A stretch of 32,510 nt of DNA, taken from NCBI GenBank assembly GCA_028874995.1, contig JAPPGM010000073.1, positions 24,238 to 56,747 of the forward strand, read 5' to 3'. A program made the translations under genes and the position numbers. The notes under the pieces were generated by a model. That model saw nothing but the letters and a program-made list of their open reading frames with translations, had not been told where the DNA came from and searched no databases. The stretch is from Gemmatimonadota bacterium. Its GTDB lineage: Bacteria; Gemmatimonadota; Gemmatimonadetes; Longimicrobiales; Gaopeijiaceae. Of this stretch, positions 25,902-31,911 are shown in pieces (position 1 is the stretch's first letter; each line of letters begins with the position of its first letter).

Positions 25902-27296
25902 ATGGCGCTCCTCCTGTTGCTCGGCCTCCTCGAAGTGGCTGCCCTCGCCGCCTTCGGATGGATGGACGGGATTGCATTGCCGCTTCCGCGGCTGTTGCTG
26001 CCCGCTGCGGCGTTGCTCTGCTACGTGGGGGCCGGGATTGGTATCGGCCGGGGTACCCCGCCTCCCCTGTTTCTCTTGTGGGGAGTCGGCATCGTCGCCC
26101 GTGTCGCCCTCCTTCCCCTCGCTCCCGAGCTCTCGGACGACATCTACCGCTACCTATGGGACGGTCACGTCCTGGGGGAAGGCGTCAATCCCTACGCCCA
26201 TCCACCGGACGACGAGGCCCTCGCGGCGCTCCGGACGGAGTGGCACGGCGAGATCAACCACCCCCATGTGCCGACCATCTACCCGCCGCTGGCCCAGGTG
26301 CTGTTCGGACTGGTGAACGTCGTTGGGGGAACCATCCTGGCGGCCAAGCTGCTATGGCTCTGCTTCGACCTCGGATGTGCGGCGCTGCTGCAACGGATCG
26401 CCGCCCGCACCGGACGAAACCCGGCCAGGGTGCTCGTCTGGTACCTGTGGTCGCCGCTCCTGATTGTGGAGACGGCGTGGAGCGCCCACTTCGACGCGGT
26501 GGGGCTCTTCCTCATGACGGTGCTGATAGCGGTGGCGGTGGGTGGGCGGGACGACGCCGCAAGGGGTCCACATGCTGGACTGCCTCTGGATCCCGACCCG
26601 TCCTCCCGGGGACGCCTTCTTCGAGCCTGGCAGCGCCCCGCCGTCCTCGGCTCGGTCCTCGGCCTGGCCACCCTGGTCAAGTTCGCGCCCGCCGCCGCCC
26701 TCCCACCCCTGGCCCGGCGTCACGGTTTACGCGCCCTGTTCGCCTTCGCCGCGGTGTGCGCGGTCTTCTATTTCCCCTTCGCGGGTGCCGGGATCTCCGC
26801 GCTGACCGGAGGGTTGCGCACCTATGCGCGGCACTGGTCGGCCAATGAGGGGGCTTTCTCCGTCGTCCTCCATCTGGCCGGGGATCCGGTGGCGGCCCGC
26901 GCAGCTGTTGCCGTCATGGTCCTGGCGGTCGCCGGATACACGGCGTGGCGGCGCTTCTCCGTCGAGCGGGCGCTGCTGTGGGTCCTGGGTGCAGGGCTGC
27001 TGTTGTCGCCCACCGTTCACCCCTGGTACGTGCTCTGGGTCCTCCCGATGGCTGCACTGCGGGGCCATGCCCCCTTCCTCCTGGCCGGTGGCCTCGCGTT
27101 TCTCGGCTACTGGGGACTTGCCTCCTACGAGGCTACCGGAATCTGGCCGCAGCCCGGATGGAACCGGGCGGCCATGTGGCTGCCCGTGTGGGGACTGATC
27201 CTCTGGCGCCTCGTCCCGGCGGGAGCCACGCGCTACACGGCCCCCGGTCGCGAGCGAGAGGAAACCGGCCGCGAAGAGGGCCACGAAGGGGAGTGA
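25902..27296 (+). CDS. Integral-membrane GT-C glycosyltransferase (GT87/mannosyltransferase-like)
   Basis: A 464-residue polytopic protein with about 11 hydrophobic helices. The GT-C signature loop after the first helices is LSDDIYRYLWDGHVLGEGVNPYAHPP (about 78-103; key acidic pair DD), typical of polyprenyl-phosphate-dependent mannosyltransferases and DUF2029/GT87 proteins. Further landmarks are TIYPPLAQ, WSAHFDAVGLFLM and SPTVHPWYVLWVLP. The active site would face the periplasm. The hydrophilic C-terminal tail REREETGREEGHEGE and the preceding 175 residues are antisense to the 3' extension of the opposing glycosyltransferase. Its donor could be made by the divergent GT2 at 24912-25745. Confidence 0.82.
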   Translation: MALLLLLGLLEVAALAAFGWMDGIALPLPRLLLPAAALLCYVGAGIGIGRGTPPPLFLLWGVGIVARVALLPLAPELSDDIYRYLWDGHVLGEGVNPYAHPPDDEALAALRTEWHGEINHPHVPTIYPPLAQVLFGLVNVVGGTILAAKLLWLCFDLGCAALLQRIAARTGRNPARVLVWYLWSPLLIVETAWSAHFDAVGLFLMTVLIAVAVGGRDDAARGPHAGLPLDPDPSSRGRLLRAWQRPAVLGSVLGLATLVKFAPAAALPPLARRHGLRALFAFAAVCAVFYFPFAGAGISALTGGLRTYARHWSANEGAFSVVLHLAGDPVAARAAVAVMVLAVAGYTAWRRFSVERALLWVLGAGLLLSPTVHPWYVLWVLPMAALRGHAPFLLAGGLAFLGYWGLASYEATGIWPQPGWNRAAMWLPVWGLILWRLVPAGATRYTAPGREREETGREEGHEGE

Positions 27297-28997: not shown

Positions 28998-29678
28998 TCA
29001 CCCGTCGCGGCCGTCAGCTGCGTACTGTTCAGCCTTCATCACGAACAAACTCGTGGTTCCCGCGTGCGTCAGCGCAAAGAGTGAGAACAGTACGGCCTCA
29101 GGGACGCCGCGCTCGTCTCCGATCACTCCCCCGGCAAGGAGGCCACCCAGACCCACCCCGACGACCGAACCGAGCAAACCGGGCAAGAAGCGGCCCCCGA
29201 CGAGTTTCGCCCCGAGTGCGGGACCGATGGCCATCGCCGCGGCTCCACCCGCAATCAGGAATTCCCCTCCACTACCGCGCGGCGAATACGCCCCCTTCAA
29301 TGCGAGGGCGTAGGCGACAGCATCAGACAACGCGGCGGCAATCGACGTCGTCAGAAACACCCCTACCCCGGACAGGCCCGGAGCCGGACCCCCGCGTGAA
29401 GTCTCCTGCACCACCCCGGGTGGCCTCGCCCAAAACTGCGGCCGAGTCCCTGTGGACCCGTGGCCGCCAGTGACCCTTGCGCCAGCCGATTCCGTCAACC
29501 GGTAAGTTCCATGAAACGGGCTCCGCTTCGCTTCCTCGATGGCCGCGCTCAGCGACAGGCCCTCCCGTTGCCCCGCGCGCTGGCAGGCAGCTTCGCACGG
29601 CAGTGAGAGCAGCGCTGTCAGCAATAGGCAGCCTGGAATGACCGTCCGCAATTCGTACGGCTGATCACGGAGCGCCAT
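28998..29678 (-). CDS. KRSPFH-motif secreted/membrane paralogue 1 (unknown function)
   Basis: A 226-residue protein from the ATG at 29678. It has a signal peptide (core VIPGCLLLTALLSLP, cleavage near CEAAC), then at once the motif SAAIEEAKRSPFH, a Gly/Thr/Arg-rich linker, and a C-terminal region of about four Gly/Ala-rich hydrophobic helices (GVFLTTSIAAALSDAVAYALAL, FLIAGGAAAMAIGPALGAKL, LPGLLGSVVGVGLGGLLAGGV, VLFSLFALTHAGTTSLFV). The open frame extends upstream to 29975 but that part overlaps the next paralogue. I know no family for it. It lies 8 bp after the stop of paralogue 2, so they form one transcription unit. The helix part resembles paralogues 2 and 3 in layout more than in sequence. 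Confidence 0.75.
   Translation of the reverse strand: MALRDQPYELRTVIPGCLLLTALLSLPCEAACQRAGQREGLSLSAAIEEAKRSPFHGTYRLTESAGARVTGGHGSTGTRPQFWARPPGVVQETSRGGPAPGLSGVGVFLTTSIAAALSDAVAYALALKGAYSPRGSGGEFLIAGGAAAMAIGPALGAKLVGGRFLPGLLGSVVGVGLGGLLAGGVIGDERGVPEAVLFSLFALTHAGTTSLFVMKAEQYAADGRDG
29512..29570 (-). repeat. Conserved KRSPFH-coding block, copy 1
   Basis: 59 bp aligned with copy 2 (30177-30235) shows 54 identical positions, including a 33-bp perfect match (29521-29553 versus 30186-30218). It encodes the motif after the signal peptide. Flanking sequence diverges quickly. Confidence 0.8.
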
Positions 29679-29686
29679 CGTCGTAG

Positions 29687-30346
29687 TCAATCCCTGGACC
29701 CGAAAGGCTTGACGGTCAGCACGCTGACGGTAAGTCGTACGCCGTAATACGCGAGTGCAGCAGGGAATATCGCATCCGCGGAGAGGGAACCTTCGAGTTC
29801 GTTGGCAACAAGGACGAACGTTCCGACGCCCAGCCCGGTACCAAGAAGCGAAGACGCAAACGCCGACCCGGCCCTCACTCCGGCCCGGTGCATTGCCAGA
29901 GCGGTCACGGAGGACGACGTGGCAGCGAAGCCGATCCGGCCCAACCACCGTCGGTCTCTTCCCAGGAGATACCATCCAATGAGATCTCCCACCGCGATCC
30001 CAAGCGCCGTCGCAAGAATCAGGTGACGGGGCTCATCGTCCGCACGATCCGTTTGCGAAGCCGTTTCCCTTGACAGTGGGGTGTGGCCGAAGGGAATCGG
30101 GGTACCGGCCGCCAGCGGTCGGGCGGCGGTCTCTACAGTCTGCGCGTTGACGACGGGATCGGCCCGGTCAGCGCGGTGAAACGGACTCCGCTTCGCTTCC
30201 TCGATGGCCGCGCTCAGCAGCAGGCTCTCCCGCTGCGACTCGAGCTGGCCGGAGGCTTCTTCAGGCAACGGAAGGAGCGCGGCTGAAAGCAAACAGGCAG
30301 GCACGCCAATTCGGGGAGGGAAGAAACATCGCATCATACGTCTCAT
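29687..30346 (-). CDS. KRSPFH-motif secreted/membrane paralogue 2 (unknown function)
   Basis: A 219-residue protein starting at ATG 30346 (ATGs at 30337 and 30334 are alternatives). Signal peptide MRRMMRCFFPPRIGVPACLLSAALLPLP with cleavage near ASGQ, then LLSAAIEEAKRSPFHR, a linker of about 45 residues, and four hydrophobic helices: ILATALGIAVGDLIGWYLLG, IGFAATSSSVTALAMHRAG, SAFASSLLGTGLGVGTFVLV and AIFPAALAYYGVRLTVSVLTV. The second half is clearly homologous to paralogue 3 (shared LGIA-GDLI, SLLG-GLG-GT and YYGVRL-V). It lies 61 bp downstream of the pgeF-like gene and 8 bp upstream of paralogue 1. Function unknown; the topology suggests an inner-membrane anchor with a periplasmic N-terminal tag, or four helices if the signal is cleaved. 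Confidence 0.78.
   Translation of the reverse strand: MRRMMRCFFPPRIGVPACLLSAALLPLPEEASGQLESQRESLLLSAAIEEAKRSPFHRADRADPVVNAQTVETAARPLAAGTPIPFGHTPLSRETASQTDRADDEPRHLILATALGIAVGDLIGWYLLGRDRRWLGRIGFAATSSSVTALAMHRAGVRAGSAFASSLLGTGLGVGTFVLVANELEGSLSADAIFPAALAYYGVRLTVSVLTVKPFGSRD
30172..30235 (-). repeat. Conserved KRSPFH-coding block, copy 2
   Basis: Shares 54 of 59 bases with copy 1 (29512-29570) and a 23-bp perfect match (30172-30194) with copy 3 (31740-31762). The minus strand encodes AAIEEAKRSPFHR. Confidence 0.8.
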
Positions 30347-30407
30347 CGCTCTTGCCGGGGAGTCGATCCAGCATAGGCGGGCCTACGCGGACGATCGCCG
30401 CGGCGTT

Positions 30408-31247
30408 TCAAGGAAGCGGCAATCCTTCTGAATCGCATTCCGCGACGATGCCGATGAACGCCCTCTGCCGACCCAAATCGCCTCGACGGTGCGAAAAATA
30501 CCTTCCGTCAGTGCACAGGGTGCATTCGGTGCTCACGCTGACCCGTCTCGGGCTGACACCGGACGCGATCACCTGTGTCTGGATGACCCGCCTCAGATCG
30601 AGCAGCCCACGTGCCCCGGGAGTCCCCTCGCCCAGGGCCTTGAAGACCTCCGGTCCCACTTCGTAGCATGCTCCGCATATGGCTGGCCCGAGATGAACAG
30701 ACACGTCGTCCGTGCTACATCCGAAGCTTTCGTGCAACGCTGCGATCCCTCGCTGCACCACCCGCGCCGCCGCCCCCCGCCATCCCGCATGGAACAGCCC
30801 GACCGCCTTGCGCACCGGGTCGGCGACGAACACGGGGACGCAGTCGGCGACCGTCACGGTCAGGAGGACGCCCGGCCGGCCGGTCACATGTCCGTCCGCG
30901 TCTCCCACCACGCACACGCCCGCAGACATGTCCACATGCGCCAAGGTGAGCGATCCGTGCACCTGCCGGCTGCGGACGACCGAACGCCAGGGCCGTCCCG
31001 CAGTGAGCGGAAGCATGCCCAGAAGGGGCGGGACGCCCGGGTCTGTATTGGAGTCGGGTGTGCCGGACCCGGTGTCAGCGCCGAGGGGGCCCGCATCGGA
31101 TCCCGGACCAGAGCGCCGGGTCGTGCCCGCCCGCAGCCACGGGAAGCGAGTCACCCAATCCGAAACGGGGGTTATGGGAGAGTGCCGGGCGCCCAACGGG
31201 CCATCGTCGGTGGACCGTGGACGCTTCGTCGCCTCAACGCCGGGCAT
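30408..31247 (-). CDS. pgeF: PgeF/YfiH-family purine nucleoside phosphorylase (laccase-domain, LACC1-like)
   Basis: A 279-residue cytosolic enzyme from the ATG at 31247. The family (formerly polyphenol oxidase/laccase domain) phosphorolyses or deaminates purine nucleosides, and PgeF also corrects misincorporated residues in peptidoglycan precursors. The zinc/active-site triad is visible: H97 (RQVHG), C136 (VADCVPV) and H153 (HAGWRG), followed by GPAICGACYEVGPEV and the C-terminal CTLCTDGRYFSHRRG. Residues 45-75 form a Gly/Asp/Pro-rich insertion. The ATG overlaps the end of paralogue 3 by 14 bp, indicating coupling; an upstream TTG at 31271 is less likely. It is sandwiched between two KRSPFH-motif paralogues. 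Confidence 0.92.
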   Translation of the reverse strand: MPGVEATKRPRSTDDGPLGARHSPITPVSDWVTRFPWLRAGTTRRSGPGSDAGPLGADTGSGTPDSNTDPGVPPLLGMLPLTAGRPWRSVVRSRQVHGSLTLAHVDMSAGVCVVGDADGHVTGRPGVLLTVTVADCVPVFVADPVRKAVGLFHAGWRGAAARVVQRGIAALHESFGCSTDDVSVHLGPAICGACYEVGPEVFKALGEGTPGARGLLDLRRVIQTQVIASGVSPRRVSVSTECTLCTDGRYFSHRRGDLGRQRAFIGIVAECDSEGLPLP

Positions 31248-31911
31248 TCCATTCTCGGCTCTCTCGCTCAAGACGCCTGGTCAGGGCCAGGGTGACCCCG
31301 AGACGCACGCCATAGTAGACGATCGCCGCGGGAATAATCGCCGCGTAGTAGAGAGGCTCCGCCAGCGCATACGCCGTGACCAGGCCCGTCCCAATCCCCA
31401 ACCCATGGCCAAGAAACGACGACGCGACCGACGCCCCGGGCGACACCCCCGCCCAGCTCGTTGCCAGTGCCGTCAAGGATGGCGAGAGAACAAAGAAGGA
31501 GGCCCAGGCCATCCCTTCGGTTCCCGAATTCGCCGCGAGACCAAGGCTGATGAGATCTCCCGCCGCGATCCCAAGCATCGCCGCAATAGTCGCGTAACGG
31601 GACCCGTCATCCGCCGAATCGGCTTGCGCGGCCCTCTGAGGCGAAGACGGTACCGATCCGGTGGCCAGCGCGACATTGTCCGCGCGCCAGGCGGCGCGCA
31701 CGACTGCCCGCGGATTGACGTGAGGGCGGGCCCGAACCACGCGGTGAAACGGACTCCGCTTCACCTCGGCGATCGCCGCGCCGAGCGCTTCAAGCGACCG
31801 CCGTTGATCTTCCAGCCCACTCTGCGCACGCCCCTCAATCGGGAAAGCCACCAGCGCCGCCGACGCGATGCCCAACAGCGCCATTCCTGCCTTTCCTGGA
31901 ATCCGATTCAT
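31234..31911 (-). CDS. KRSPFH-motif secreted/membrane paralogue 3 (unknown function)
   Basis: A 225-residue protein from the ATG at 31911, with a strong AGGAGG ribosome binding site 5 nt upstream (31922-31917). Signal peptide core GMALLGIASAALVAFP with cleavage near GRAQ, then LGAAIAEVKRSPFHR, a linker to about residue 105, and four hydrophobic helices (IAAMLGIAAGDLISLGLA, ASFFVLSPSLTALATSWAG, VASSFLGHGLGIGTGLVTAY, IIPAAIVYYGVRLGVTLAL). Homologous to paralogue 2 over the helices. It is the first gene of the apparent operon paralogue 3 - pgeF - paralogue 2 - paralogue 1 and diverges from sucA. No characterised family recognised. Confidence 0.8.
   Translation of the reverse strand: MNRIPGKAGMALLGIASAALVAFPIEGRAQSGLEDQRRSLEALGAAIAEVKRSPFHRVVRARPHVNPRAVVRAAWRADNVALATGSVPSSPQRAAQADSADDGSRYATIAAMLGIAAGDLISLGLAANSGTEGMAWASFFVLSPSLTALATSWAGVSPGASVASSFLGHGLGIGTGLVTAYALAEPLYYAAIIPAAIVYYGVRLGVTLALTRRLERESREWNARR
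31740..31762 (-). repeat. Conserved KRSPFH-coding block, copy 3
   Basis: 23 bp identical to 30172-30194 in paralogue 2, coding KRSPFHR with the same codons. Similarity then drops (the Ala/Glu codons upstream differ). Confidence 0.8.

Follow-up and report, generated by a model that had tools for sequence, protein, structure and literature searches.

TonB-dependent transporters, otherwise divergent, carry close to their mature N-terminus a short conserved peptide, the TonB box, which is bound by one shared partner. PEP-CTERM/exosortase tags, likewise short, are located at the C-terminus of unrelated exported cargo of a lineage. In the stretch of DNA that we have analyzed (32,510 nucleotides from a Gemmatimonadota bacterium, referred to here as the window) a short tag is found near the predicted mature N-terminus of three proteins, all of which belong to an undescribed, expanded family. 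Few members of the phylum serve as experimental models.

Tagged genes of the window and spread of the family

A preliminary description of the window had proposed that three minus-strand proteins share a tag after a predicted signal peptide, and all of these ORFs and tags are indeed present (Table 1), each tag being SAAIEEAKRSPFH or a variant of it; the tag stretches read LSAAIEEAKRSPFHG in paralogue 1, LSAAIEEAKRSPFHR in paralogue 2 and LGAAIAEVKRSPFHR in paralogue 3. The order of genes along the minus strand is paralogue 3, the PgeF-like gene, paralogue 2 and paralogue 1. In each case the tag lies ∼40 residues from the protein start and ∼10 residues past a cleavage site of the AxA↓Q type, and each of the three genes has the features by which the family is defined, namely a signal peptide with an A↓Q site, the tag pattern, a linker and a four-helix domain. 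Paralogue 1 most likely starts at the ATG at 29678; the 325-aa ORF listed for it, starting at 29975, overlaps paralogue 2.

Table 1. Positions of the tagged genes, their tags and the intervening gene in the window
Feature	Position	Strand	Description
Paralogue 1	28998..29678	-	226 aa: signal peptide, tag LSAAIEEAKRSPFHG, linker, four helices
Tag of paralogue 1	29511..29552	-	LSAAIEEAKRSPFH
Paralogue 2	29687..30346	-	219 aa; layout as paralogue 1; 8 nt upstream of paralogue 1
Tag of paralogue 2	30176..30217	-	LSAAIEEAKRSPFH
Paralogue 3	31234..31911	-	225 aa; layout as paralogue 1
Tag of paralogue 3	31744..31785	-	LGAAIAEVKRSPFH
PgeF-like gene (Cu-oxidase_4, PF02578)	30408..31271	-	neighbour here, no functional part of the tagged family

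A search with the paralogue 2 protein returned diverged homologues within the genus, and an N-terminal profile built from 20 homologues, with which family copies were counted, gives ∼60 of them, the three genes of the window among them. Of the 23 genomes of one Longimicrobiales (Gemmatimonadota) genus, 11 have tagged copies, with 1 to ∼17 per genome (∼11 in G000, the genome of the window, and 16-17 in G003), and the tag is retained in the low-copy genomes G006, G011 and G013. The five carriers that are named are metagenome-assembled genomes (Gemmatimonadota/Longimicrobiales), and the bin names of some of these suggest marine sponge symbionts. No convincing match to the tag was found beyond the genus in the wider family, while a full-length profile, run over the order, the class and the phylum (up to 395 genomes each), returned only one further complete copy, in a genome (G209) from another family of the same class, outside the order. 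The family had been proposed to be lineage-specific, and this distribution, one genus and a single intact copy in another part of the class, bears the proposal out.

The copy in G209 adjoins a tyrosine recombinase/integrase gene (PF00589, PF13356, PF22022; L158:7766-8995 with L158:9005-9577 for the two genes) and is ∼75% identical to a copy in G018, so that it was likely acquired by horizontal transfer. Viral contigs contained no relative of the tagged family and no tRNA integration sites were found near copies in 22 stretches. A separate observation is a dispersed repeat of ∼100 bp that is common to genomes of different families of the class (L158:7514-7614; L161:4875-4974; L028:4124-4221; L038:8600-8773; L102:5653-5705).

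Scans of 51 members against Pfam, NCBIfam, PHROGs and PADLOC gave no family beyond weak single-member matches, a sequence search of the PDB gave only weak, unconvincing matches, Foldseek against the PDB gave nothing below E 1, and the literature texts contained neither a mention of the tag nor a paper that brings together Gemmatimonadota, sponge, symbiont and signal peptide. As far as the searched libraries go the family is undescribed, as had been suspected.

Tag, linker and helical bundle

Identities were compared over the 1275 pairs of an alignment (A4) of 51 members. The layout is constant in all intact copies, comprising a signal peptide, AxA↓Q, the tag L..A[IMV].E[AV]..SPFH, then ∼42 residues of variable linker and a hydrophobic domain predicted to form four helices, and the placement of the tag just past the signal peptide, claimed at the outset for the window, is thus true of every intact copy. 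Mean pairwise identity is 0.61 for the tag, 0.25 for the signal peptide, 0.24 for the helices and 0.14 for the linker, with the tag more identical than the helices in 99% of pairs, so that the initial impression of a tag much better conserved than the rest extends to the family as a whole. Paralogue 3 has orthologues in G021 and G018, placed between sucA and pgeF. Among the orthologues of paralogue 3 tags are 93-100% identical, helices 51-71% and linkers 43-67%. The length of the linker is conserved (36-53 aa) but its sequence is not. The inferred +1 Gln is invariant and the -1 Ala is 90% conserved. Paralogue 1 had been thought to keep mainly the tag and layout, which the present results contradict: with a profile from which it was left out its post-tag region scores E=9e-22, compared with 0.37 for the best of 90 shuffled controls, and paralogue 1 is a full homologue, helices included.

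Genome-wide, a tight DNA pattern of K-R-S-P-F-H-like codons matches the three window tags only, while the looser pattern E-x3-SPFH gives 12 matches as opposed to 1 for the reversed control, 9 of these in family members. The other 3 of the 12 loose matches lie in frames that are unrelated or probably do not code for protein, and none of them is behind a signal peptide. With ∼60 copies the family extends well beyond the three genes. Different C-terminal domains behind the tag had been named at the outset as the support to look for. None were found: every intact carrier found has the same divergent four-helix domain, and a general N-terminal sorting tag on varied cargo is rejected because the intact tag carriers found all share one domain type. 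The tag is restricted to one family and hence is no general sorting tag for unrelated proteins, a notion disfavoured both because no unrelated carrier was found and because exosortase (PF09721) is absent from all 23 genomes of the genus; an exosortase/PEP-CTERM-type system is rejected on the latter grounds.

The same two results bear on another reading, in which the tag serves as a signal for sorting or processing. It would then be a pro-region recognized by a protease, chaperone or outer-membrane targeting factor of its own, and cleavage might follow SPFH. We consider this rather unlikely given that the tag is found on one protein family with no unrelated cargo and that the genus has no exosortase, even though the tag has a fixed site just past the signal peptide (a median of 10 residues after the +1 Gln) and is short and strongly conserved, the residue behind it being in most cases small or basic (A 23, R 9 and G 7 of 56).

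The AlphaFold model of paralogue 3 has a confident four-helix bundle (pLDDT mostly above 88) and shows the tag as a helix (pLDDT 71-83), with a low-confidence linker; the model of paralogue 1 is poorer than that of paralogue 3. The hydrophobic moment of the tag helix is unexceptional (0.45 compared with 0.33 ± 0.15 for shuffled sequences). The best VIA structural alignment of the bundle, for which matches are unspecific, is to 5mlz, the GtrA-like TM domain of dolichyl phosphate mannose synthase (DPMS), with Z 8.6 and an rmsd of 4.2 over 115 residues, and this score may simply reflect an arrangement common among helical bundles, for which Z values of this size are often obtained. Membership of GtrA_DPMS_TM (PF04138) by sequence is rejected, there being no Pfam match for family members and none in the six frames of G000, and to our knowledge GtrA proteins are without such a signal peptide and tag. 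A TonB-dependent transporter is rejected as well, with four predicted helices, no barrel and no Pfam match. In 44 of the 51 members loop L23 and the C-terminal tail are basic, and L12 and L34 acidic. By the positive-inside rule these charges would place the C-terminus, and hence the start of TM1, in the cytoplasm, in conflict with an exported N-terminus; either the rule would be misleading for this weakly charged bundle, or the mode of insertion or the membrane itself would be unusual.

Bundle homologues with a signal peptide but without a recognizable SPFH tag are found in sister genera (L130, L132-L134), with E values of 4e-7 to 2e-10 against the bundle profile in the set scanned; in the one sister genus that was searched, 2 of 11 genomes have a single tag-less relative each. 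A different multicopy tag in a sister genus is rejected, since the L132 protein has one weak homologue only. A further tag-less bundle relative, L129:1423-1986 (G009), has repeated PFH/PFY motifs (APFHAAP, GPFYPM, SPFYPM) before the helices and no clear signal peptide.

Judging from the sister-genus sequences, a bundle without a tag would be viable, and this would be a mild argument against a purely internal role. In such a role the tag would fold back on the bundle of the same protein and cap it, gate it or supply a catalytic segment. An internal role would account for a tag that always accompanies this bundle and is consistent with the tag helix, which is predicted with fair confidence for paralogue 3. 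The bundle residues, however, are far more variable than the tag, unlike a co-evolving docking surface, and the linker is long and poorly predicted, so that together with the tag-less homologues we regard an intramolecular element as unlikely.

Codon usage and history of the loci

Codon pairs for the same residue differ in 47% of cases in the tag and 58% in the body, family-wide. Because the tag codons vary, the constraint is mainly on the protein, and a DNA-level palindrome or element as the conserved unit is rejected as the main cause. The Ser of SPFH is encoded by AGT in 34 of 49 copies, compared with 7% elsewhere in the same genes, and the tag Phe by TTT in 29 of 54, compared with 22% elsewhere in these genes (for the Ser and Phe codons see, for example, window 30176-30184 and 31744-31752). 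Paralogues 1 and 2 have an identical tag in which 2 of 14 codons are changed, as opposed to 18 of 27 in the body (Fisher p=0.0025). Fewer codon changes in tag than body are seen in two tandem pairs (p=0.0025 and 0.011), these pairs having been picked from several examined, which suggests local gene conversion in addition to the constraint on the protein; it may have homogenized the tags of paralogues 1 and 2.

It might thus be asked whether the tag is conserved merely through recent duplication or gene conversion, with no special function, as the near-identical tag codons of paralogues 1 and 2 and the enrichment of the rare AGT and TTT codons would have it. We regard this as highly improbable. 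Over the family as a whole the tag codons vary nearly as much as those elsewhere and the tag persists in low-copy genomes. The family tree contains locus-specific groups, each with its own conserved neighbours and some uniting G000, G012, G018 and G021; since the tag is common to groups that split before the multicopy genomes diverged, recent duplication alone is insufficient.

At the locus of the window sucA-pgeF-GT2 is conserved and the number of family genes is variable: the window and G021 have three each, one of those in G021 being frame-shifted, and G018 has one; ∼four family genes lie beside pgeF in G003. Clustering around a PgeF-like gene, which had been noted for the three paralogues, proves local to one locus; other loci have other neighbours, and PgeF is a mere neighbour here. 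Broken copies are present in several genomes, and together with the variable gene number they indicate quick turnover of a family in which the tag is retained. Two contigs of G000 (L040 and L041 on C52 and C53, each ∼4.58 kb) bear the same family gene and are probably one element assembled twice. Within the window ∼570 bp (26727-27296) are common to two ORFs on opposite strands, that of a GT2 glycosyltransferase on the minus strand (655 aa) and a GT87-like ORF on the plus strand, and full-length matches to the GT2 ORF are kept in G018 and G021 (83-86% identity).

Multiple, tandem copies with fast turnover and broken members, and one copy beside an integrase in another family of the class, might also be expected if the proteins were exported effectors or pore formers that serve a host-associated or competitive lifestyle and are delivered by means of the tag. 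This we judge very unlikely, as there is no match to a known protein, defence or phage family and many copies are single, in conserved housekeeping neighbourhoods.

Proposed role of the tag and comparison with known systems

Our preferred reading, held tentatively and with somewhat less than even confidence, is that in a lineage-specific, multicopy family of Sec-exported membrane proteins a flexible arm displays the tag as a docking peptide, which binds one shared envelope partner. Against this reading stand the occurrence of the tag on one domain type only, the loop charges, the unexceptional hydrophobic moment of the tag helix and the possible gene conversion between paralogues 1 and 2. The family, its layout, the conservation contrast, the copy-number turnover and the restricted spread are observed, and from them we infer export, cleavage and docking to a shared partner in the following manner. 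The signal peptide would be cut at AxA↓Q, as judged from the consensus, freeing a mature N-terminus that bears the conserved 14-residue helix-plus-SPFH peptide. This peptide would be presented on the flexible arm of ∼42 residues, anchored by the fast-evolving four-helix bundle, and would most likely be the handle by which all these proteins dock to the same envelope partner, with the anchors having diverged so as to act with or at different membrane sites. A fixed peptide that is always mature N-terminal on a flexible arm, with drifting linker and anchor, is what would be expected if the peptide docks to a single partner that is itself conserved, which makes plausible both a docking handle and the recognition role first proposed for the tag. 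More doubtful, though possible, is that up to ∼17 divergent membrane proteins per genome present a near-identical N-terminal peptide to a single periplasmic hub, in what would be an undescribed tag-partner code. A 14-residue peptide that is fixed while its surroundings drift to ∼24% identity is a usable bait for the partner, and with such a bait one could learn whether a docking or sorting code of the envelope exists that is particular to the lineage.

A likeness to the GtrA/DPMS TM domain (PF04138; 5mlz), the best structural alignment, would be in the arrangement of the four-helix bundle, while PF04138 is unmatched by the tagged family. The family resembles the TonB box in that many divergent exported proteins, export being predicted here, bear a short conserved peptide close to the mature N-terminus; TonB-dependent transporters, however, are β-barrels with another motif sequence, whereas members of the tagged family are predicted helical bundles. 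As with PEP-CTERM tags, a short tag is common to many exported proteins of a lineage, but the PEP-CTERM tag is C-terminal and on unrelated cargo, whereas the tag described here is N-terminal and belongs to one family.
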